A DNA stretch of 64,000 bases, from assembly GCA_025716815.1 (NCBI GenBank), contig JAIXMN010000004.1:186001-250000 (forward strand). The letters are read 5' to 3'. Positions 9,712 to 32,300 of the stretch are shown piece by piece. This stretch comes from Dichotomocladium elegans. Its lineage: Eukaryota; Mucoromycota; Mucoromycetes; Mucorales; Lichtheimiaceae. The position numbers and the translations under genes are program-made. Position 1 is the stretch's first letter. Each line of letters starts with the position of its first letter. The notes under the pieces are model-generated. The model worked only from the letters and a program-made list of their open reading frames with translations, did no database searches and had not been told where the DNA came from.

Positions 9712-11300
9712 ATGAAACCCCGGAGCTACTTACTTCTTCTGTGCCTCTCTGTTGTCGCCACGCTCTACTGGTGCCGACTAACGGCGATCAGCCAATGGTC
9801 CTTTAGCGATCTGTCATCCATGTCACTGCCACGATCGCGGCCAACCAGCAACTTGCCCGTGTCAAAGGGCCAGAGCGACCCTCGGATACTGAAAGCGCTC
9901 CAAAGTGTCGATGAAAAGTACTGCGGGGGACCTTGTCGGTTCCTTCTACCTGTCTCCATCACTGAGCAAGGTACGTGCTAACCTTCGATAATCAGCTAGT
10001 TGGCCACATGGTACACTCACTCATACGCACATACATAGAGTCGAAAGGACAGATGCATTTTCGGCAGCTTGCATTTGCATCCGGCCTCGTAAATCGCACG
10101 TTGGTCCTTCCAAATGTTGGCGAATCACGGATAGGTGCTTGTATGAATCACAGCTTTTCATTCTACTACTCTAGCCAGTGGGCTGTTGATAACGAGCAAT
10201 ACTTCTCTCATATCACCATGGAGAGCTTCATAGCATGGATCAAGGAAAGACTCGCAGTCGGCGTACCTGCAACTTCACAGACACTACATATTCACCTTGA
10301 CAAAAACCACCCGCAACTTGTCGAGCCTCCCAACTGTTTTGAAGACTTTCTAAACTCTACAGCTCATCCTGAACGAACTCTCTATCTTCAGGACAGCTCC
10401 AATCCGAAAAGGCACAAATCAATACAGAAAAAAATACTCAAGTTCTTGGCTGAGGAGCAATATGACATCCCGGAAGTCCAGAGTGTTTACTATGACAGAC
10501 GGTAATTCGAGTAAACTCAAAGAGCTTAACTACTCTTGTTTTCATTCATTCATCATCGTCCCAAAAGATATCCTTTCATCCAGAATCCAGCGGCTGATGA
10601 ACCTATTCCTTATAACGAAGAGATCATGTCGCTTGTTCATAATATGGCGGATCAAATCTCGCCTTATTGGGCTATCCACTGGCGTACAGAACGTGTTGCT
10701 CCTCCCGAGAATCTTGTTGGTTGTGCAGAATCCTTGGAACAACTGTTTCATCGCCGAATCCGCCAGTTTAATCTAAGCCCAGCTCCAACGCTACTTCTCC
10801 TGACAGATTATCCGCATGTTTTTACTCAAGAGGCTGTTTATGAGGCTATCCAGTCACCAAACCAGAGCGCTGCCACCTTTCCCTATCCTCCGGCTTCCAC
10901 GTCTTTTGCTGCGTCTGATCTTACACCCTATCATCACCTCGCTTTCCAGTATCTGTACGAGCATATGGACATCAAAGTTACCCATCTTGGTGAACTCGAT
11001 ATGCCCAAAGGCATCCCACCTAACTGGACAGTTCTCCCTGTTTCAGGTGCTGTAGCGAAATTGGATCTTGGTATACTGGGCATCATAGATAAGATGCTTG
11101 CCGTTGAAGCCGACGTTTTCATAGCAGGTGACCCAAACTGGTGTGCTCGCCGAAGTAGCTTTACACGACGTATCATTGACGAGCGCATTGATCGGCTAAG
11201 GACAGAACTGGGCGAGCAGAAGGCTATTGGAGAGGAGAGTTGGTTCGAAGAGCCACAACATGTCCGTAATATTGTAGAATATTTTAGTCTGCCACAATGA
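9712..11300 (+). CDS. Type II membrane protein, O-fucosyltransferase-like glycosyltransferase (putative)
   Basis: Three exons: 9712-9970, 10039-10501 and 10568-11300, phases consistent, giving 484 aa. A short cytosolic basic N-terminus and one hydrophobic segment (SYLLLLCLSVVATLYWC) predict a type II Golgi/ER membrane protein. The lumenal part begins with a conserved block (GQMHFRQLAFASGLVNRTL, then VLPNVG) like the first nucleotide-sugar-binding loop of O-FucT-fold enzymes. Further on is IHWRTERVAP, in the place of the His/Arg motif of that superfamily. The C-terminal block ADVFIAGDPNWCARRSSF is typical of the sugar-nucleotide side. Two N-x-S/T sites are seen. Substrate cannot be told from sequence. 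The stop is only about 12 bp from the left end of the mobile element. Confidence 0.65.
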
Positions 11301-11504
11301 TGTATATATATACACCATTTTTCAAAATCAAAGTCGCACCCTGCCAGTTTTGAAGTCGCAGGATCGCAAAAATACAAATCGCATTTTTGTCCGGAAATCT
11401 TTACGCGTGATGACAAAGCAAAAGTCGCATACATACACGGAAAGATGTCGCAAATCCATCTCATCCTTATGACTCTTTCTCTTTATAAACTTTTACATTT
11501 TGAA

Positions 11505-11895
11505 ATGAGCAATCTATTATTTTACAACGATGGCCAAGGTCATGTCGCTGATGAGGAAATGTACTCACTTCAATCCGTTTGTTCTTACACTGACTATCTG
11601 TGTAGCATATCGTGCAAAGATAACTCTGAGTTTACTCTCTCACACATTCCCAAGCGAAAGGATACATACATTCGGATGAAAGAAGCGGGGATCAAGGGCA
11701 GTTACACAGCATACACTGATCAAGGCAAGGTCAGATGTTTCAAACTGGTGTTTGAGGAGGTATTGAGTGCAAAACAGCTAGGACTCCATGTTCGTTCAGC
11801 ACAGCGATGGGCATTACAGTAAGAAAAGGATCCTGACAGCATTTTAAGAAACGTAGAAGCAGGGGGCCGATCGTGTATTCTCGATGAAGAGCATT
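11505..11895 (+). pseudogene. Truncated IS630/Tc1-type transposase, N-terminal and HTH part only
   Basis: The reading frame MSNLLFYNDGQGHV runs on to YTAYTDQGKVRCFK and AKQLGLHVRSAQRWALQ, where a TAA interrupts it. The homologous sequence continues as EKDPDSIL and frameshifted debris to about 11895, then stops. The same segment at 29374 onward reads AAKQLGIHVRSAQQWVLQYE with no stop. The helix-turn-helix (LSAxxAAKQLGIHVRSAQxW) would bind the terminal repeats. The catalytic DDE region is absent from this copy. Confidence 0.75.
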
Positions 11896-12345
11896 TATTG
11901 TTCTAGAATGCAATTTTCGCTAAAAATAGCCGTACTCAAAAGAATCCTATATCGAGAAGACTAGGTTTATTCTTGGAAAGAACAAAGAACTATCAGAGTG
12001 TGCTTTCTTTGTCAATGAGCCATTTAGCCTAGGGATTGTAACTCCGAAGCTGGTTATCAAATGGAATAATGAATAGCTTTCAGGAGACTCCTGTGTTCTC
12101 ATTGTAATATTCAGAGAAATTATTCATTATGTACCTACACTTTCTGAACGTATGGATAAGGATGACAGCAGTGTCGTGTTTTGTTGTGTTGTAAGAGACT
12201 GAGAGAGTACGAAAAGAAGTACAATCTTCCTACACTACACAAGTGCCGGATATGTATCGGATTATTCTTGAGATGGTCTCTTGGAATTACTTGTTGGAAT
12301 TGTTTGGGATTTCATTGTTGATTTCAGACCGCTCTCACGTCGATA
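11896..12345. other. Internal element sequence without recognisable gene
   Basis: AT-rich DNA between the transposase remnant and the MITE. Short stretches could be decayed transposase, but I cannot align them confidently. Confidence 0.3.
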
Positions 12346-12517
12346 CAGTGGCCGCCCCTTATAGTTATACCCTCGGTTCCAGGAAATCGCATCACTATAA
12401 TGAATTATCACTATAATGAATTGGAATAAGCCCTACCTGGCAATTTTGTCCTTCATAAAGTGTATCGCTATAACGAATTATCATTATAATGAATATCACT
12501 ATAACGAGCGGCCACTG
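12346..12517 (-). mobile_element. Palindromic pogo/Tigger-like MITE, copy 1
   Basis: A 172-bp unit bounded by CAGTGGCCGC and GCGGCCACTG with TA on both sides (12344-12345 and 12518-12519). Its interior is made of repeated ATTATAGTGAT/TTATAACGAATT units, so much of it can fold on itself. The style of ends and the TTATAACGAA units are those of pogo/Tigger-class MITEs (family knowledge). A diverged copy lies at 31353-31508. The unit ends about 245 bp before the Fanzor ATG and could contribute promoter sequence. Confidence 0.8.
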
Positions 12518-12762
12518 TAAAACCTCATTAAAGAACCCAGTGGGAAAAAGAAAAACACTGTGGAGATGGATCATTGCTGACACTATAAATAGTGATGCTC
12601 AAGCAAGCTGTCCCTTTCCATTATCCACATACAAAACTAGAGCCCATTCAGCCTACAGAAAATAACACAGCACCACATTTACGGTTGAAAGGTAATACGG
12701 CCGCTTTCATACTCGGCTCTGCGATACTAAGAAATAATATACCCTAGGTCTTCACCCACCAA

Positions 12763-14961
12763 ATGGCCCAACCCCACCGCCCCGTCATTCCCGAAGGCAT
12801 GCGCACTGGCCACAGCATTGACCGCACTGGCCGTATAATTGGGGTGAAATCGTCCATACGGGGCATCGGCTGGCGACAGCAGTACCGTGAACGTCTGTAT
12901 CAGTTGGTTGACCTTGTCCACAACACCACAACACAGGCGTACGCGTTCGCCAAATATATTTTCATCAACGAGGCAGCGCGCGATCCAACTTTTAACATCC
13001 AGGAAAACATCACGGAGAAGTTCTTTTCAGAAGTTTGGCTCTCCATGGTTAACAAAGCCGAACGCCGCACCCAAGGTGAAACTGCCCGCATCCGAGAACT
13101 AATTAATCGCCACAAGGATGAGTACCTTCGGATATCCGGATACGACAGGCCTGCGTTCCCTTATTCCCAGCAATGTTCTTCTTACGAAGGCACCAAGATT
13201 TATACTGCTTACGTGAATAATGTCCACATGCGGTTCGGGCAACACCTTCGGCGTGTCATCAATGTCATCCTGAATCTTCGTCAGCGAAAAGCCGACCGCA
13301 AGCGAGAGTTAATCGCACAGGGCCTAAGCCCCGATCAAGTACGCCAGGACCTTTATGAAACCATCACCCGGCATGCCACAGGATTCAAGCAAGCAATTGC
13401 CCGTCGAGGTGTTTTGAGGGAAGACATTAACGCCGAACCTGGATTTCTTCGGGAAGCATACGATATCCTACAACCTGTCTTAAACGCTTACCCCCGAAAC
13501 CACCAATTCCAACACCAGAGTATCTATTACGACGCCAAGGCCAATCCTGTTAAGCATTTCAACGCCTTCTTCCAGCTTGCACGCGTTTGTCAACAGAACG
13601 GAATACGCGGATTCAACTGTTTTCCACTTCGTCGCTCGTGGTCACCATGCTACATGGAGATCGATACGAAAATCCTTTGCTACCATATCCTGGGCTGCAA
13701 AATGGAATCCCACACAAGCAATATGGAGTACTGGAGACGTGTTGTAAACCTGAAATCAAGAGCTTTCAAACCCCAAGAATCCGAGCTGCTCCAATTCCGT
13801 GGGACTATTCACACTGACGGCGTCGGTGTTACTGTGTTCAAGAAGACAAATGGCCTTCAATCGGGTTTCGGACAGAGATTTGGCATCCAGAGCGAAGATA
13901 TCGAATACGTCACCCCACAGATACTCCGGAACGAAGACTATAGAGGACAATGGGTCACCATTGATCCTGGCAGAAGGGACCTGTTGTATTGCGTTCATGA
14001 GAACTCGTCACCCGACAACCACCAGACCTTCCGATATACAAAGCAGCTTCAAGATCATACACGGAAGACCAAACGGTACCGCAGACTCCGAGAACGACTC
14101 AAGTTAGAGCGACCCGAGGTCGCGTTGGCTGAGCAGAATCTATCTCAATTTCAAAGTCATACGCTTTCCGTGCCCAACTACGACGGATACCTCGCCGCCA
14201 AGAATCGGGTCTCTGTAATTCTCAAGTCTTTCTACGCGACAACCACCACGAACCACCCGAACCCGCAATTTCTTTTTCGAAAACTTCGCCTGTCAGCGTT
14301 TTACAAGAAGCAGCAAGCAGATGAAAAGCTTCTCGATTCTTTGAATGCGAAGTTTGGCAGTAGATCCGTTTTCGTGATGGGAAATTGGTCTGCGCCGCAT
14401 ACAAGATATCACGAGCCTATCCGTGGTGTCGGCTTCCGGCGGCTGTTGAAGAAGAACAATTGCAATATTTATTTGGTCGACGAGTACAAGACAAGCAAGT
14501 GCTGCCCTGTATGTGGCAATGAAAGCCTTGCTACCTTTAAAATGGTTCCTAATCCACGCCCATATCGACGACCCGACAATCCGCTCACGATCTGCCATGG
14601 CCTGCTACGGTATGAAGGACGGGCATGTTGTGTTATACTTCCAAAAGATTATAATACAGTATTTTGATGTTTCAATAGATGCACAAATCAAAACTGTACA
14701 GCAGGCATGGCAGAGGGTGTTTGTCAACCAAGGTTATGGAACCGGGATCTGGCGGCGGCTCTCAACATGCATCATATCCTCCGGGGTCTTCGGGAAGATG
14801 GTATCATCCCAGCAAGGTTCCAGAGAAGAAATGCTGCACAAGCATCCGCAGCTGGTGGAAGACCACACTCACCTGAACCAGAGCAGCGCAGCGTGAGACC
14901 ACGACGGGCAAGGCCAGGAAGGCCACGAGGTGCACGCTCTGGCGGGTCAAGACGACCGTAA
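12763..14961 (+). CDS. Fanzor: eukaryotic TnpB-like RNA-guided nuclease (OMEGA family), apparently intact
   Basis: Two exons, 12763-14609 and 14679-14961, give 709 aa. Without removing the 69-nt intron (GTATGA...CAATAG) the frame stops at 14667 before RuvC-III. The N-terminal half (GWRQQYRERLYQLVDLVHN, HMRFGQHLRRVINVILNLRQ, FNCFPLRRSWSPCYMEID) is the Fanzor/TnpB WED/REC-like region. RuvC-I is WVTIDPGRRDLL with Asp about 401. The canonical RuvC-II spot (VMGNWSAPH, about 538-546) has no Glu. A Glu lies 33 residues on in VDEYKTSKCCPVCG (about 574), the displaced position known for Fanzors. The zinc finger is CxxC (581, 584) plus C617/C622 from exon 2. RuvC-III is WNRDLAAALNMHH with Asp about 639. 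The Arg-rich C-terminus could act as a nuclear signal. All catalytic positions look intact. Confidence 0.93.
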
Positions 14962-15240
14962 CCCCAACCAAGAATTTTCCGCGTCAGTTATCGCTGACGC
15001 ACCCAGGATAACCACAGCCCTTCGGGGCAAGCCCCCTTCCTTTGGAAGGACGGTGTGTTGTAAGTCAACGGGATTGGAGAAGGCGTAGTGTTTTCTGCTG
15101 ACTAACAGGGTTTCATCCATGGATGCGATATCTTTTTACCTATTGATACGACAAATTTATATAATCCTATGCGACATTTTTCTTGTATTTTGCACGACAT
15201 TATTTTATCTTGTTTACGAAATTTATTTTTGAAAATAAAG
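14962..15240 (+). ncRNA. Candidate Fanzor guide (omega) RNA region / element right end
   Basis: Directly after the Fanzor stop come three compact perfect hairpins: 14981-15000 (7-bp stem), 15017-15028 (GCCC-TTCG-GGGC, a UUCG tetraloop) and 15035-15049 (CCTTCC-TTT-GGAAGG). Then follow blocks shared with other right ends in the window: a GTAAGTYAAxGGxATGGAG block at about 15060, TTTTCTGYTGACTAACAGG at about 15091, and TGATACGAC near 15147. The unit ends in an 8-bp inverted repeat (TTTATTTT-TG-AAAATAAA) that also holds an AATAAA. In TnpB/Fanzor systems the guide scaffold is encoded between the ORF 3' end and the element right end (known). That this is such an RNA, and where it ends, is inference. 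Confidence 0.45.
14981..15049 (+). other. Three tandem perfect hairpins
   Basis: Stems 14981-14987/14994-15000, 15017-15020/15025-15028 (TTCG loop) and 15035-15040/15044-15049, all without mismatches within 70 bp. Fungal intergenic DNA rarely looks like this; it fits a structured RNA. Confidence 0.8.
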
Positions 15241-15298
15241 TATAAAGGACGATAGCGATATTGTATCTGGATTTGAAAGTTTATTCCCTTATCTCCAA

Positions 15299-16157
15299 TC
15301 ATGCTTGGGAACCTTTCTGCGATATGTTAAGCGTAGGTGGAGCACCCAGCATACGCGAGTTACCCGCTTTCTCGTCTTCATCTTTGACCTTCTTAAGGAA
15401 TTCCTCGCGGGCTCTGTCTTGCCATCGGTGCTGCTCGGCGATCTCGTGTATTTTAAAACCAAATATGCGTGGTTCATAACGATCATATGACTTGGCAGGC
15501 ATGTAGGACGGATGAACTTGGAAAAGCATGTGAGGGAAAGAAGTACCAAAGTAAGCCCCATCGATGGATGCATGACGGGACGAGCGTGGGTTGTAAATAT
15601 CTTCGCAGCGAGGGCAATAGAGTTTCACGGTTTTTGTCATGGGGATATCCGATAGTCCGACAGGAAGCAAGGCCTGCTGATTGCAGAGTACACGAGGGCA
15701 ACGACCAAAATCGCCCTTCTTATACTTGTCGAGCTATTCGCGCCAAAACCCAGTAAGATATTGTGTAGCAAAGCTGTATATCGTCCCCACTTACCATCTT
15801 CGCTAAACCACGCGTGGTAATGACAAAACGCGCGTGAATCAAGCCATACAAATGACGAGCTGCTTTTTCAATCTGATCTCGAACTTTGTTACTCAGTGCA
15901 TCCTCCTCTAAAAGGAACGCATCAAATCAATCGGCCGCATTTTTAGAAATCTCGCAATGCAACCTCATACCGAGATTGTCGGTGATCATATCCAACGCTT
16001 CCGTGTAGAAATGCTGCACCTCTTGATTGAGACCGGTCAGGTTAAAACGATCCAGGATATATTCCTCGTCTACTTCGCAAAAGTATTCGTTGCCCTTGAT
16101 CTCAATGAACCAGTCAATCCAGTATTTGGCATATTCGCTTTCTGTTCCGCTGCTCAT
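15299..16157 (-). CDS. ckb1: Casein kinase 2 regulatory subunit beta
   Basis: Three exons, 16157-15971, 15907-15795 and 15733-15299, phases consistent, 244 aa. The N-terminus ([17 protein letters not shown]) and the acidic loop are typical. The zinc-binding core is seen as CPRVLC and then [17 protein letters not shown], with [18 protein letters not shown] forming the dimer interface. [17 protein letters not shown] precedes it. CK2 beta forms the dimer that holds two catalytic alpha subunits and steers substrate choice in nucleus and cytoplasm. The upstream GTG-initiated reading is not needed because an ATG is present at 16157. The Fanzor element ends about 58 bp past the stop codon, in the 3' flank. 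Confidence 0.97.
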
Positions 16158-22989: not shown

Positions 22990-24849
22990 CTTTATTTTCA
23001 GAAATGAATTTCGCAAGGGAGGAAAATAAAATGTCGCACAAAAATATTATCAAAGTCGCATAAATAAGAAGGCCGAAACATACCCGTTAGTCAACAGAAA
23101 ATATCAGCCCCCTCCTTGTTACCGTTCAATTTACCCCGAACGTAGCTAGGTGTGCCATTGCGGTAACAAGGGCGGAAGAGAGAAGAAAGGAAGGAGCCCG
23201 AGCTGTTGATCGTCGAGGGCGGAAGGATTGGAGGAAGGAACGAAGAGGGACGACGACAACACCAGCGGCAGAAGCATCAGAGGAAGCAACGAAGTAGACG
23301 AACAAAAGCACCTCGACGAAGCCATGGTGGGAAACCTGCGCCGGCGCAGCTAAATCACTGTCCCACCCAAAGCCCATATCCTCTCCTCTCGAGGCACTTG
23401 AGTTAGGCTGATATCATTATCTATAGGGGGTCCGGACTATTAGAAGTTGCAGAATGAAACAAGTTGATATGATAGGGTGACCTATTGCGTTTTATTTCGC
23501 TCTTGACTACTGACCAAAACTTCTCAATCAGGTTGAGTTCAGACGAGTATGGTGGAAGATAAGCATATCGATATCCTCGAGACTCAGTGTATTTAGCGAT
23601 ATCCTGAGCTTTATTGATAGGTGCATTATCCATTAGCAAATAATGGCCATTCATATGCTCATACTTACCTATCTCGTCCATTGTAGCCTTAAGGAAGCTG
23701 AGACAATGTCCAATTACAGTTCCTCTGCTCGCAACTTCAGCTTGACTTGTCCTCTTTCTTTTCTGATAGGGGCTGCGCGAGTCTCGAACTACATTTAATG
23801 GTGCCTGGTGCTGAGATTGCTCCCAGGACGATGATTGTCTTTGCACTTGTCTTTGGTATTGTGACCGCTGCAGGAGTCCATTTCTTGGACCATGCATGTT
23901 GCGCTTCATTTAATATGGAATCCAGACTCCTCAAAGAAAATGCAGTTTTTTCTAAAGTCAATGTCGGCCCTGTCCCATTTGCGTACCCAGTCAGGGCGCT
24001 CATAGATCTTCGCAACGATATTCCTGTCTACAGGCTGAAACCGAGCCATTTCCAATGATGAGTTGCATTCGTTTTTCCTAAGTCGATCGAGCGTCGTTTT
24101 AGATGCTTTTACACCCTCAAATGTGTGGAATTGCTCCGTCAGCTGCTGCTATGACAATAGATGGATTCTCATCAACGCATTCTAAAATAACAATCTTATG
24201 TTCTTCATTGAGATACGCGAACAACTCCTCGCTTTAAGTTTCTTAAAGATGCTGTCAAGGACTTTTTCGTACTGTAATGCCCTGGACTGAACGAATATGG
24301 ATTTCTAGCTGTTTTGGAGCAGTTGATACACTCAAGTCCTTCTCAAACATCCGTATGAAAAATCAGACCTTGTCTTGGTCAGTATACGCTCTGGTCTCTT
24401 GTAGGGACTTTGCGGCATAAAGGTACTCGGGCTCCATTGTTTGATCGGCGATGTCTGTATCCTTTCACTTGGGAATGTGTGTGGTAGGAGGATCAGAGTT
24501 ATCTCTGCAAGATAAGTTACTAAGATATCCAGTGTGAGAACAAATGAATTGCAGAGAGTACATTTCTTCGCCAACAACATAGATCATAGGTTCAGGACAG
24601 CCACGCTTATCAACAACATAACCTTGGCCATCTTTGTAGAAAAATAGGTTGTTCATTTCAGAATGTAAAAGTGTATACAAGAGAAAGAACCAAAAGGAAG
24701 AGATGGATTGCCAAGCGACATCTTTTCGTGGATGCATATGACATTTGCTTTGTCATCATGCGTCTCCTGGAAAAAATGCGATTTTATTTTTGTCATCCTG
24801 CGACTTCAGGACTGGCAGGGTTGCGACTTCGATTTTGGGAAAAGGGCAA
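22990..24849 (-). mobile_element. Decayed IS630/Tc1-type element B
   Basis: Read on the minus strand, the left end is at about 24849 (TA|TTGCCCTTTTCCCAAAATCG, then AGTCGCAACCCTGCCAG). The right end is at 22990 (TGAAAATAAAG|TA), both next to TA. It carries a nearly full-length but broken transposase. Between transposase and right end lie about 400 bp that include TTTTCTGTTGACTAAC and the terminal palindrome shared with element A. This internal stretch encodes an Arg-rich frame on plus (23206-23406) and a short minus-strand match to the RuvC-III motif (GWDSDLAA versus LWNRDLAA), too weak to call a Fanzor remnant firmly. Confidence 0.65.
23421..24740 (-). pseudogene. IS630/Tc1-type transposase, interrupted (element B)
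   Basis: The 5' part reads MNNLFFYKDGQGYVVDKRG and resembles the A copy. The HTH region near 24300 is broken by stops and frameshifts. The DDE part 23421-23909 is open: GHYLLMDNAPINKAQDIA carries the second Asp and ELNLIEKFWSVVK the third acid. The copy cannot give a full transposase as it stands. The match to the copy at 29.4-30.4 kb is high across the DDE part. Confidence 0.8.
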
Positions 24850-24975
24850 TACGTCTCGTGTAACGAATGCAATATGAAGCTAATGTCGGCTTTTGTCCTG
24901 TCTATCTCTTTTTACCACTTACCTTAAACCCCTCACACTCCCTTTTCTTTAATAATGACTGGCTCCAGATTTACA

Positions 24976-26626: not shown

Positions 26627-29029
26627 TCAACAATACGTATGAATGCAATACTTTTCTGTGTCAGTCGTTCGTTCACGAAAATACAGCATCCCATTTAAAA
26701 TCGAATTCCACACTCCCTCCATCCAAACCCAAGAACAGCAGAACTTGAATCACTTAAAACTGTATACCTACATAATAAATCATGAATATTAGGAGTCATC
26801 GCTTATATTAATTAGCTTATTATGTCTTCGGCGCTTAACACGCCATTGGTTCCTTTTACATCCATCCATGGGTGACCTCATTTGTGTCACAAAACTTGGT
26901 TCGGCTTTGACATACGTCTTGTAGCTGGGGAGGGATATGGGATATAAGCTGTGAACGACCACGTCTCGCATTTCTTTTTGCATGCACGATAATTGTCGAC
27001 ATGTGCTACATCTAGTTAATCGCGACAAGGCAGGGGTGATGATCTATTTTGCTTTATAAGCTGCATATTAAGCCAGAAAGGAGGATCGTTGGCGGGTGAT
27101 CAGCGTCCATTGAGCTAACTAAATAGCTATGAAGGTTATTTACTCTGCACGCATTAGTCAATTATTTTCCCGTTGTTCGAATCTGATCCTCCCGCCAAAG
27201 AACAATATAATTAAATCAATCCGAAGGCAGTCTGAGCAGGACAAGCTTTTATGGGTAACAGATAAGTTCAACTTTAGATTCTTTAAGGAAAATTATTTGT
27301 ACCTGCATGGAGAATGCCTTTCATAAGGAGATATCTTATCCACGTGGTAAGAAATTTGCCTGTTTATCATCATATCCTCGAACTAGCGAGCCCACAATTA
27401 ATAAGCTCTTATTTTTAAGATGGTTTATGGTCAAATAGCAACACATCCCACTTCGCTCGATTGTTGCGTCGGCTGGGAGGCTTCCGCCTCCGGCCCCCAG
27501 TCCCGCAATAAATTAGTGCAATAAGGTGTATAAACATCCTATTCCCCAGAAAATCCTGCACGGTTGTATAATAAAATGTTCAGGGCTTCCAAAGTTATGC
27601 ACCTATTCAAGTGTCGTACAGGAAATGAAATACAATTTGTTGTCGTTCAGCTTCGTTCAGTGCTTGTCCAGTGCTTGTCCATCCATCCAATGGCCATTAG
27701 ACAGCTTTGCTTGATGCCTCTGACGAAGAATAGGAAATCCATCTTCCTGTCCTTGATGCAATGTACACTTCTGCATGATGCGTATTAGTATAAGCTAGTC
27801 CATTCATATAGGTTTCAATTTGGACATCTATCTTTAACGATGTCTTCTGAAAAACATTGAATTTGCAGGGTCTAGTATAATTTAGCGCTAGGCGGTGCAG
27901 AGAGATTCAAGAAATCATGCATATGCAGAACCATTCAGTAAATATCAGGCTCTTGCAGGGCCATGCAAGGCGGGGGGTTCAATCTAACAATTCAGCCTAT
28001 TCATACCCTGCAGAGTCGCGCATGATTTACGGTTGAACACGGTGAATAATCATCAATTAGATATAGCCATAAAGATAATAGAATATGTCTCTATGACATA
28101 CAAGTCTTCATTCACTTATGCACCTTCGAGAGACTGATCCATCTACTACGCTCTGCGTCATCCACCTGTGGGGCCCAGGGGTGGAAAACTGCTCGTTAAT
28201 ATAGTGGACAACCTATCATATTTACCCGTAATAATTCTCGTGTAAAGAAAACCGTTTAGCACCGTTACGTTTCTTGAGACATAATCGGCTAATTTGATAT
28301 TTTAACTGGGGAATATGTTGGTCCATCGTCTACGTGATGTACAATAGCAAAAGGTTCGGGTCGCAATTGGCCATTTGAACAAAGAGAATCAGCAAACTAC
28401 TTGCCTTGATCTATTCGAATAGTAACTACGAAGAGAGTAAGCCCAGGAAAAAGCAGTCAGTAGACGAATGAATGCCCTTTATTGTTAGATAAGTTCTCCC
28501 TTTATTTATATTGTTTACTTATACTAAAAATATGATATTGACATTCGTATGAATTATGTGTGTTTAAAGTAGTAATCTGCATATGTCATGATCCACGTCG
28601 ACCATAATATCAAATGAAGACGTAGGTCAAATGCTACGTCAGGGATCATACGAAAATGGTTACTCAAACAGCCGGGTGACATGATTACGACATCGCTGTC
28701 GTCATTCAATATTCATAGGTGCGAATAATTATTTCTGTTGCAGTTGGCAAGATGTCCTGACATAATACACAGCTATATGCTTTTTTTTATCCCTTTGCTA
28801 GGTACGCAACAATAGTCTTAGCCACCATTTCTACTCAAATTATGCAGCAGTACACTTGCATATTTTAGCCTTAGAAAACAGCATAAATATGGCCGAAAAT
28901 CTCTTGAAAAAAACCATTCACATATACTTTATATTTAATACCGTCAACTCTGTGGAACAATTTTACACAAGTGCGACAGTATTACCAAACGGCATAAGCA
29001 TTGTGTCGTTCTCCTCGTTTAGTGTAATA
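26627..29029. other. AT-rich gene desert, 2.4 kb
   Basis: Only short ORFs (the longest are 79 codons on minus at 26789-27028 and 65 codons on plus at 27129-27326) without motifs. It contains one GC-rich hairpin at 27473-27500 that stands out against the AT-rich background. No RNA gene seen. Confidence 0.35.
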
Positions 29030-29373
29030 TACACTACTTTTCACAATCAAAGTCGTACCCTGCCGGTTCTGAAGTTGCAGGATCGCAAATATACAAATCT
29101 ATATTTTTTTACGAAGATGGCCAAGATCAGGTCGTTGATGAGCGTGGCTGTCCTGAACCTATGGACTATGCCATTGGTGAGGAATATACTCACTTCAATC
29201 CGTTGTTCCCACACTGAATATCTGCGTAGCATGTCGTTCAAAGATAACTCTGAGCTTACTGCCACTCACATCCCCAAGCGAAAGGATACAGACATCGCCG
29301 GTCAAACAATGGAGCCCGATTGCCTTTATGCCGTAAAGTCCCTACAAGAGACCGACTGGCCGAAATTCGGATG

Positions 29374-30440
29374 AAAGAAGCGGGGATCAAGCGCAGTTAC
29401 ACAGCATACACTGACCAAGACAAGGGAAGATTTTTCAAACTGATGTTTGCGAAGGACTTGAGCGCATCAGCTGCTGCAAAACAGCTAGGAATACATGTTC
29501 GTTCAGCCCAGCAATGGGTATTACAGTACGAAAAGGATCCTGACAGCATTTTTAAGAAACGTAGAGGCAGAGGCCGTTCACGTATTCTCAATAAAGAGCA
29601 TAAAAGTACTATTTTAGAATGCGTTGAGGAGAATCCATCCATTGCCCTAGTGCAGCTGATTGATCAACTGCTCCAGAAATTCGAGGGTCTCAATCCAAAC
29701 GACGCTCCATCGATTTATGAAGAAACGAATCCAACTTGTCATTGAAAATGGCTCGGTTTCAGCCTGTAGACAGGAATAGCAATGCAAAAATCCAAGAGCA
29801 TCTTAACTGGATGCGCAGATGGGGCATGACCGACATTGACTTTAGAAAAAACCGCATTTTCCTTGATGAGTCTGGATTCCATATTACTATGAAACGTAGC
29901 ACGGCATAGTCCGAGAAATGGATTGCTGTAGTGGTTACAGTACCAAAGACAAGAGCAATCTCAGCATCTGGCATCATTAAATGTAGCTTGAGACTCCCGC
30001 AACCACCAACCAAGAAAAGAAAGAGGATACGTCAATCTGGAGTTGCGAGCAGAGGAACTATAACTGGACATTATCTCAGCTTCCTTAAGGCAGCAATGGA
30101 CAAGATGGATAAGTGTGAACATGTGAATGGCTATTATTTGCTAATGGATAATGCACCTATCCATAAGGCTCAGGATATTTCTAAATACATTGAGTCGCGA
30201 GGATATCGATACGCTTATCTTCCACCATACTCGTCTGAACTCAATTCTATTGAGCAGTTTTGGTCAGTGGTCAAGAGCAAAGTTAGACGCAATAGGCTCT
30301 TGGAAAGCGAGACGTTGATGACACGAATCAGCCAAGCATCCAATAGCTTAAAGCTGAGCAATTTCGAAGGTTTCATTTCTCATTCTCATATGTGCTTAGT
30401 TAACTGCCGTAATGGGAACAACTGTGATTCGACCTCTCCT
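29374..30440 (+). pseudogene. IS630/Tc1-type transposase, frameshifted (element C)
   Basis: The HTH part (29374-29690) is open: KDLSASAAAKQLGIHVRSAQ then WVLQYEKDPDSIFKKRRGRG. The first catalytic Asp is seen in another frame as FLDESGFHI near 29860. The rest (29931-30440) is open with YYLLMDNAPIHKAQDIS and SELNSIEQFWSVVKSK. The family is the DDE_3/IS630-like transposases. At least two frame changes and a TAG separate the parts. Confidence 0.85.
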
Positions 30441-31200
30441 CCACCTTCGGAGCTGCACCGGTTCTTGAGGGTACGTCCCTGCCCCTTCTCTTCTTGATAA
30501 TGGAGAATCCTACGCCATCCGTTTCAGATGTGCCTCGAAATCGAAGCACTCAATTCTCTGCAGGCTTGAAAGCTTTCGAATGGACATTGATGACTTCATC
30601 CCATCCGCCAGGATAAGGAACTTTTTTGTTCCATGAGCGACCCAGAATGTTTTGCCATACGATTTTCGCGTCAATCATTATGTATGGCGGAGACCATGAC
30701 CGACGAAGAGGGAAACAGTTAAATGCAGGCAACTGAAGTCGCTCAAAAAGGAGAGCGAGCTGGTAAAAGGCTGCCATATGTTGGATTGGATGAACCTTTG
30801 CATCGTAGTAGATGCTATCGTTGTCAAAGGTATGGGTACTGGTGTAGGCATCGAAAATTGGCCGGATGGGGTCGAAAGCTTCCTGAAGATAAGCTGGGTC
30901 TTCAAGGACTTCGTCTCTGGATACGTTTCGACCAGCTACAGTCTGTTTGAATGTTGTTGCGCAGGTAATAAGTGTCCCTCGGATGCGTTGGCTGATTTGT
31001 GTCGCGTCCAGACCGCAGCCAATCGGCTGCTCTTCAAGTTCCTCTTTCCGCTGTCGAACATTCAACAAGACATTGATAGCCAGCCGAAAGTGTCGGCCGA
31101 ATCGCATTTGAATGTTATTGGTGTAAGCAACAACCATCTTGGCACCTTCGTAGTTTGCAGATCGATGAACGTCCATACTTGGAAGGATTGTTTTAGTACG
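30415..31200 (-). pseudogene. Decayed Fanzor copy, truncated at both ends
   Basis: The minus-strand frame MDVHRSANYEGAKMVVAYTN to NVHSKAFKPAEN (31176-30550) aligns along its length with residues about 138-345 of the intact Fanzor: MRFGRHFRLAINVLLNVRQR, SIYYDAKVHPIQHMAAFYQL, FNCFPLRRSWSPPYIMIDAK. A TGA interrupts it at 30552-30550. Homology continues past it (VLRFRGTSETDGVGFSIIKK against LLQFRGTIHTDGVGVTVFKK) and ends near the 3' end of the transposase. The first ~130 residues and all RuvC and zinc-finger parts are missing, so no nuclease can be made. Confidence 0.88.
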
Positions 31201-31352
31201 GTAGGTTATCGATGAAACGAGTGTATGAAAGAAAAAGAGCGAGTGAGAGTAAATAAGCGGTTTTCTTCGCGGAAGTACATATTATCTATTCTTTCTTATT
31301 TCACTAGTCTCATACAAGCATTCAGTTTTTAGGATTAACGGGAAATCAATTA

Positions 31353-31508
31353 CAGTGGCCGCCCCTCATAGTGAGATTCGTTATAATGACCATTCATTAT
31401 AGCGATACACTGTATACAGAACAAAATTGCCAGGTAGGGCTTATTCCAATCCGTTATAGTGACGTGATTTCCTGGAACCGACGGTATCACTATAACGGGC
31501 CGCCACTA
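31353..31508 (+). mobile_element. Palindromic pogo/Tigger-like MITE, copy 2
   Basis: Starts TA|CAGTGGCCGCC and ends with a mutated copy (GGGCCGCCACTA). It aligns with the reverse complement of copy 1 over its length, including the central block AAAATTGCCAGGTAGGGCTT. It lies on the 5' side of the Fanzor relic, as copy 1 lies 5' of the intact Fanzor, in the same relative orientation. Confidence 0.8.
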
Positions 31509-32300
31509 CAATATAAATGCACATGCAACTTTATCAAACCGACCCCTGAATACGCCCAATACAATCCCGTTTCTAGCAGCATCACGGACGGCATGTCGAT
31601 TGCTGAAATACACTATGCGAGCAGCCTAGGGCTAGAAACATCAAAATAAACAGTATCAGTAAATGATGAAAATCGTCGATGAAAGAACATGTGATCCGCC
31701 GCTGTATTTACTGCAGCATCGTTTATCATAAAGAAATTTATTCTGCTCCTCCTTGATTTCCTACAAATAATGGACAGTCAAGAAATCTCTTTTCTCCATC
31801 AACTTTATCACGACCCTCTCTTCCATGGTCTTATCCGCTATGATCACTATAATACCAAGTTATTTTATTGCAACCAGCACTCACTGTCCTTTATAGATTA
31901 ACCAATCATACCCGTGCTTGATGAGCCATGGAAGAGAGGAGTTCCTGAACACCCTTCCGTTCTTTTCCGCTGCCACCTCAGGCCCCATTCCGCTCCTTCC
32001 CTCTTCCGCCACCGTTCCCTCGCCTGGCGCCCTGGCAGCAGCAGCCTGCCTCTTCTGGTGTGCTGGCTCTCTCCTCCTGTCTTTCCGTCCTGGTTATCGA
32101 GGGGACTACACATGTCTTATACTGGGTCCTTTGGGGCCCTTGAGTGTAAGTTAAAGCGTATGGAGGAGTAGTGTTTTCTGTTGACTAACAGGTTTTATTC
32201 ATGGATGCGAAATCTTTTTACCTACTGATACGAAAACTTTATACAATCCTATGCAGGATTATTTTATTTTGTTTACGACATTTATTTATATATTAAACAC

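Follow-up and report, generated by a model that had tools for sequence, protein, structure and literature searches.

The locus studied here raises the question of whether a fungal genome encodes an intact Fanzor, a eukaryotic RNA-guided nuclease, and what kind of element carries its gene. We analyzed a window of 64,000 nucleotides of Dichotomocladium elegans DNA, and positions given without a contig refer to this whole stretch. A sequence-only reading of the window had proposed an intact Fanzor whose zinc finger is cut by an intron. As judged from homology and conserved motifs, the region 12763..14961 is a Fanzor1 gene in a fungal genome, and it is divided as follows.

12763..14609, plus strand: Fanzor exon 1, with RuvC-I D401, the displaced RuvC-II E574 and the first half of the zinc finger
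14610..14678, plus strand: putative intron of 69 nt (GTATGA...CAATAG), from homology across the junction and splice sites in the copies
14679..14961, plus strand: Fanzor exon 2, with the second half of the zinc finger, RuvC-III D639, a basic Arg/Pro/Gly-rich tail and the stop codon

Translation after removal of 14610-14678 yields a Fanzor protein of 709 aa, in which we recovered all the motifs at the positions first proposed: RuvC-I (TIDPGRRD) with D401, VMGNWS starting at residue 538, the displaced glutamate E574 within VDEYKTSKCCPVCG, the zinc finger with CHGLLRC at 611-617 and TNQNC ending at 622, and RuvC-III (WNRDLAAALN) with D639. The last residues, 667-709 (window ~14830-14958), are basic, rich in Arg, Pro and Gly and find little match in 17 aligned homologues. 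This tail is possibly a nuclear import signal.

The completeness of the protein depends on the intron. Without splicing, the frame ends at the stop codon at 14667 after 634 aa and lacks the last catalytic acid, which agrees with the apparent truncation described before. This shows how such genes escape notice, since an ORF caller would report a 634-aa protein without D639. We enumerated GT-AG removals that start within 14480-14666, span at least 41 nt, end by 14739 and leave the frame open for more than 700 codons. Seven met these conditions, and only 14610-14678 restores the C-x4-C pair at the position found in the relatives. One other candidate, 14632-14715, has a poor donor (GTTATA), and its removal would create a C-x2-C pair at the finger. 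The alignment to both solved Fanzor1 proteins continues through the splice junction (CHGLLRCTNQNC), with the post-intron residues CTNQNC in register. The C-x4-C pair is present at the junction in 13 of 17 aligned homologues; P0015 has no recognizable match there and the spacing is shorter in P0033. One metagenomic homologue (P0013, 40% identity) departs from the alignment directly after CHGLLR, into tyrosine. The D. elegans Fanzor does the same when read unspliced, and P0013 has the look of an unspliced reading. Similarly, 7 residues of M. saturninus P0003 are missing from the Mucor mucedo model P0002, precisely at the junction. An intron thus appears to occupy the same site in these two relatives. 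Among 20 genomic copies of the gene, the GT donor is kept in 19 (it is lost in L013) and the AG acceptor in all. Homology, the splice sites of the copies and the gene models of relatives together uphold the proposal that this intron completes the CxxC...CxxxxC finger, and the Fanzor mRNA is most likely spliced at 14610-14678. Introns reportedly occur in Fanzor genes, as Jiang and colleagues are said to have described in 2023. In the accessible portion of PMC11471210, we found nothing about introns of Fanzor genes.

The class of the protein was assessed by homology and by published definitions. A sequence search of solved structures with the spliced protein matched Fanzor1 of Parasitella parasitica (PpFz1, E=1.6e-128) and of Spizellomyces punctatus (SpuFz1, E=4.5e-52), and these two characterized Fanzor1 proteins were the sole matches up to E=10. 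Counted along the alignment, D401, E574 and D639 lie opposite D383, E541 and D606 of SpuFz1, which the available text of Saito et al. (PMC10432273) names among the metal-binding residues. The excerpted definition of Fanzor1 by Bao and Jurka (PMC3627910) is D-x(125,275)-[TS][TS]-xx-C4 zinc finger-x(5,50)-RD, and its elements are found here as D401, T577 S578, C581-C584 with C617-C622, and R638 D639. The definition in the part of Yoon et al. at hand calls for DPG at RuvC-I and a Glu six residues before the finger; the protein has D401 P402 G403 and six residues between E574 and C581. The solved Fanzor1 matches, the displaced glutamate, the DPG and the C4 finger thus bear out the claim of a Fanzor in a fungal genome.

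From a database comprising 5.8 billion proteins, the 8000 candidates with most words in common with the query were scored, and at least 33 homologues were found among them, with E-values from 1.2e-185 to 4.9e-32. Fungal names (Mucor, Rhizopus, Syncephalis, Coemansia, Bifiguratus and Radiomyces) are attached to 25 of them and eight have none. Precomputed annotations place PF26935 on 30 of the 33 homologues, PF07282 on one and neither on two. When we scanned the D. elegans Fanzor against Pfam, PF26935 was not found, and the only match was a sub-threshold one to a Cas12f1-like TNB domain (E=0.01). In NCBIfam, the exon-1 frame matched guided_TnpB weakly (E=2e-4, 20.7 bits vs a cut-off of 100).

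We identified the carrier by comparing copies of the gene with their flanks. The features of the element are listed below.

11309..11310, no strand: left TA target-site duplication, from copy comparison and one related empty site beside copy L024
11311..15240, plus strand: whole mobile element of 3.93 kb, 5' TACACCATTTTTC ... GAAAATAAAG 3', with sharp ends in 20 copies
11311..11338, plus strand: imperfect terminal inverted repeat of the left end and subterminal motif GTCGCA, from a search with a degenerate 26-base pattern of this end
11339..12343, plus strand: decayed remnant of a Mariner transposase (DDE_3 type), N-terminal part, from DNA alignment with the Mariner at 29026-29650
12346..12517, no strand: small nested element (MITE) with CAGTGGCC/GGCCACTG ends and TA duplications, from sequence reading and relatives elsewhere
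14962..15119, plus strand: 3' non-coding block with three short hairpins, a candidate omega-RNA scaffold
15086..15109, plus strand: right-end motif TAGTGTTTTCTGCTGACTAACAGG, common to transposase-bearing and ghost-like relatives, from a genomic motif search
15222..15239, plus strand: right terminal inverted repeat, with the perfect 8-bp palindrome TTTATTTT-TG-AAAATAAA just inside the end and the 15-mer TTTGAAAATAAAGTA
15241..15242, no strand: right TA target-site duplication, followed by T in the flank

The ends at 11311 and 15240 are common to the 20 copies compared, and the flanks are unlike. TA is found at both ends in 19 of these copies, L027 being ambiguous with a truncated right end, and one paralogous empty site (~75% identity) lies beside L024. 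Two other boundaries were considered. A duplication of TAT, or TAT carried along without any duplication, is disfavored by relatives that read AAAG-TAC and AAAG-TAA and by the empty site at L024; an element ending in GTA was rejected, since it would leave about one third of the duplications broken. The terminal sequences are widespread in the genome. With up to 2 mismatches, the left-end 26-base pattern occurs at 157 places and the 24-base motif TAGTGTTTTCTGCTGACTAACAGG at 127, and the 15-mer TTTGAAAATAAAGTA is present at 263; none of the three was found in the reversed control.

Two hallmarks of Tc1/Mariner elements are present, TA duplications and terminal inverted repeats (imperfect here); of the third, a DDE transposase inside the element, only a decayed N-terminal part was found. 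Copies of this stretch, 11339..12343, were recovered by a transposase query, and it has no Pfam match of its own. It contains RSAQRW (11793-11810), which we take to be a helix-turn-helix. Several left ends elsewhere in the genome are followed by a DDE_3 domain within ~0.7-1.1 kb. Given these left ends and the first kilobase that aligns with a Mariner, we read the element as a Mariner whose transposase has been lost and which carries a Fanzor. Small repeats of the CAGTGGCC type are nested in copies of the element and also occur beside copy L014 and at ~31353-31510 in an older element. The open frames upstream (11301-11819 and 10530-11297) matched no Pfam family. The element begins 8 bases past the stop codon of the upstream frame (window 10536-11310), and from the other side, on the minus strand, it is faced by a gene for the beta subunit of casein kinase II (15302-15733). 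Its two neighbors thus appear to be convergent genes. Farther along the window, the gene at 49216-50139 matches a D. elegans glycoside hydrolase at 100% over 80% of the query.

A DNA search of the 39.4-Mb D. elegans genome with 12700-15100 yielded at least 41 matches, a lower bound since 40 of 217 candidates were scored. Four of the matches listed are partial; the other 37 extend over 2.2 kb or more of the 2.4-kb query, with 94-100% identity. This high identity indicates that the copies of the element are young. The 20 copies studied here are the best-scoring of the 37 near-full-length ones, fetched with their flanks. The spliced frame is intact in 16 of these 20, which is an upper estimate of intactness because the sample consists of the best copies. 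The other four frames are broken by length differences (L020, L022 and L027) or by an early stop (L025).

It could be argued that the gene is dead: the intron would be retained, and a stump of 634 aa without D639 and without a full finger would be carried along passively. The four broken frames and the copy without a GT donor are in line with this view, as are the rates of change along the element. The non-coding leader (12521-12762) and the intron differ by 3.7 and 4.4 per kb per copy, about as little as exon 1 (3.8) and exon 2 (3.9). The Mariner remnant (8.0) and the nested small repeat (9.6) differ more, and past the stop codon the rate rises from 3.0 in the first 99 bases to 8.9 in the next 90 and 20.2 in the last 90, a stretch with deletions or changed ends in several copies. 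Because the rates are also low in leader and intron, the case for selection rests on the codon test. Across the 20 copies, distinct changes from the majority comprise 56 nonsynonymous and 55 synonymous ones against an expectation of 70% nonsynonymous (p=1.6e-5), and dN/dS is ~0.45 (0.43-0.46) in the true Fanzor frame vs 1.85 and 1.58 in the two wrong-frame controls. Exon 2 alone has 7 nonsynonymous and 7 synonymous changes (p=0.14), too few to show selection. These results suggest that the Fanzor is most likely under purifying selection across its copies. Such frame-specific selection, the 16 intact spliced frames, the register of exon 2 with the solved Fanzors and the apparent same-site intron in two relatives all speak against a dead gene. 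Short elements that possess both ends and no listed Fanzor or transposase do exist (see below), so the ends may suffice for spread; all in all, we consider a dead passenger improbable. The copy at 12763..14961 is probably functional, a view that the frame-specific selection strengthens.

Relatives of the element were found in the window and elsewhere in the genome, in the latter case with coordinates given by contig (the window lies in C57).

29030..32292, plus strand: older relative with a Mariner left end, a broken transposase (plus strand), a Fanzor fragment (minus strand), a small repeat and the same right-end motif
30481..31167, minus strand: partial Fanzor gene from a second lineage, corresponding to residues 136-364 of the first (tblastn E=6e-63)
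C33:945516-946804, C36:846302-847592, C39:607135-608423 and C46:1029411-1030645: ghost-like elements

The older element extends from 29030 to ~32292, its right edge being degraded. Its Fanzor fragment is 45% identical over 229 aa to the Fanzor at 12763..14961 and belongs to a second Fanzor lineage in related Mariners, which is older. With 150 of 451 candidates scored, this fragment has at least 156 genomic matches, which include its own lineage, the lineage of 12763..14961 at 41-45% identity, and others. We compared by eye the coordinate lists of left ends, DDE matches, right-end motifs and Fanzor fragments and found at least nine loci where a left end, a DDE domain on the same strand and a Fanzor fragment on the opposite strand follow in this order; for three of them (C1:255309, C35:297085 and C46:802280) the right-end motif is also listed. 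In addition, at least four places, the ghost-like elements above, have both ends and the right-end motif within 1.2-1.4 kb and no Fanzor or DDE match among those listed, an absence that is provisional. In those on C33, C36 and C39, the distance from the left 26-mer to the start of the motif is nearly constant (1265-1267 bp). Yet another related Mariner, also broken, lies on the minus strand at ~23421-24860 of the window, with a DDE_3 match on the same strand (C57:209478-209699).

Two Mariner-type transposase frames of 475 aa without stops were found, at C44:468593 and on the minus strand at C57:1664289. As judged from their open frames, they are candidates for the active transposase partner. 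Both loci match the family from query base 79 inward, with the first 78 bases unaligned; we found no intact transposase with exactly the ends of the 11311-15240 element, to which the 475-aa frames are not tied. Four other loci were rejected as autonomous partners, L041 and L042 as degraded Fanzor copies and L043 and L044 as short or truncated derivatives. Since the element has no working transposase and its copies are nonetheless 94-100% identical, hence young, one might suppose that the intact Fanzor protein mobilizes its own element without any transposase. The TA duplications and Mariner ends are, however, those of a DDE transposase, and the genome does contain related transposases with open frames of up to 475 aa. 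Fanzors are also not known to integrate DNA. We regard self-mobilization as extremely unlikely.

The explanation that we think likely, including its conjectural steps, is that the Fanzor1 gene is carried by a D. elegans Mariner-type transposon whose own transposase has been lost. The spliced mRNA would give the 709-aa nuclease. The right end (14962-15240) and the adjoining flank might be transcribed as an omega-RNA, whose 3' end would serve as the guide. A transposase from elsewhere in the genome would excise a copy of the element. Fanzor would then cleave the site matching the guide, whether the emptied one or its sister, and the element would be restored through repair templated by the occupied copy. 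The omega-RNA step is conjectural: the right-end motif is shared and variation is low over the first 99 bases past the stop codon, but the whole right end folds no better than shuffled sequences (z=-0.47, 30 of 100 shuffles as good) and Rfam has no match up to E=1 within 14600-15400.

Alternatively, the Fanzor may be kept for another role, such as an attack on rival Mariners with the same right end or a task for the host, with the Mariner merely spreading it. The right-end motif occurs at its 127 places across Fanzor-bearing, transposase-bearing and ghost-like elements, which would let guides from many loci serve one protein, and the accessible part of Saito et al. (PMC10432273) suggests help in trans. 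On the other hand, the flanks would supply the guides, and no common flank was seen among the 20 copies. We find such a role rather unlikely. According to the same part of Saito et al. (PMC10432273), the biological role of Fanzors is unknown. The D. elegans setting allows the question to be posed of whether the nuclease helps a cut-and-paste transposon persist: with a Mariner carrier that can be named, related transposases, young copies and ghosts, help by Fanzor in the persistence of its transposon, as we propose, becomes directly testable.

Several of these features have counterparts in known systems. The closest solved protein is PpFz1 of Parasitella parasitica (PDB 9cf0 to 9cf3), which aligns in two stretches over residues 22-666 and shares the catalytic residues, DPG, displaced Glu and C4 finger. 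Between the aligned stretches, PpFz1 has an insert of ~93 residues (chain 1001-1095) that the D. elegans Fanzor lacks; it is probably the cyclophilin-binding FRI domain of which the consulted part of PMC11423790 speaks. All 17 aligned homologues likewise lack an insert of this size at that place, where P0017 has roughly 40 extra residues.

Spu-1 of Spizellomyces punctatus, with SpuFz1 (PDB 8gkh), is alike in being multi-copy, with terminal repeats, a non-coding right end and gene-less ghosts. The available sections of Saito et al. (PMC10432273) give 42 Fz loci for Spu-1, of which 19 are full length, and 134 ghosts, and they state that no transposase was found between the ends of the S. punctatus elements. 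The ghost-like elements of D. elegans resemble these ghost loci. In D. elegans, by contrast, the ends are those of a Mariner family whose transposase genes are also found in the genome, and the D. elegans copies are 94-100% identical in DNA whereas Spu-1 has, in the same sections, ~82% protein identity.

Since 2013 the literature has included Fanzors from Mariner elements as well as from Mucorales fungi, as the accessible text of Bao and Jurka (PMC3627910) documents. Among the elements described there, PUl-4 has the same arrangement, with Fanzor1 only, Mariner repeats and TA duplications, in another host species, and PUl-1 and PGv-1, from other hosts, combine Fanzor1 with a Mariner transposase. 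In contrast to these, the D. elegans genome on its own has both Fanzor-only elements and forms with transposase and Fanzor on opposite strands. A Fanzor in a Mariner was thus already known from that source, and D. elegans adds a nameable carrier with many intact-looking copies. Our literature search did not find Fanzor, Mucoromycota and transposon together in one paper. The likeness to bacterial TnpB (IS200/IS605 and IS607) lies in the weak guided_TnpB match of the exon-1 frame, and the differences concern the position of the glutamate, the size, the intron and the DDE-type carrier.

Finally, insertion sites of the Fanzor-bearing family are asymmetric. Among the first 100 of the 263 listed right-end places, the TA is followed by T, in one orientation, in 15 of 17 members of this family, compared with 36 of the remaining 83 right ends of the same transposon family (p=0.0009). 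The background frequency of T after TA is 35%, from which the other right ends do not differ (p=0.13). Their group includes L041 and the Fanzor-less C35:1769323 (95% identical right end), both with T; counting them there reduces the contrast. On the left, A or T occupies the two positions ahead of the TA in 19 of 21 and 18 of 21 copies, respectively, and C is absent from all 21 at the base before TAT (p ~0.02 vs background). A preference of the transposase could explain both the T after TA and the A or T before it. The TAM of PpFz1 is 5'-ATN. It is conceivable that the WWTAT footprint is the TAM of the Fanzor and that copies persist only where Fanzor cuts the emptied site, in which case the G before the right-end TA would protect the element itself from cutting. 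We hold this reading to be doubtful; if true, it would constitute natural evidence for a eukaryotic RNA-guided nuclease that maintains a cut-and-paste transposon.

A smaller comparison, superseded by the count above, had given T in 19 of 21 vs 2 of 6 (p=0.011), with the ambiguous L027 counted as not T and L041 added. The right ends of ten relatives were fetched for it, nine of them near a listed DDE_3 match and the tenth (L047) not. In five of them an AAAG-TA end could be read, with C, C, T, A and A as the next bases, and the other five, in which no end could be read, were dropped; the sixth readable right end, that of L044, is AAGG-TA followed by T.
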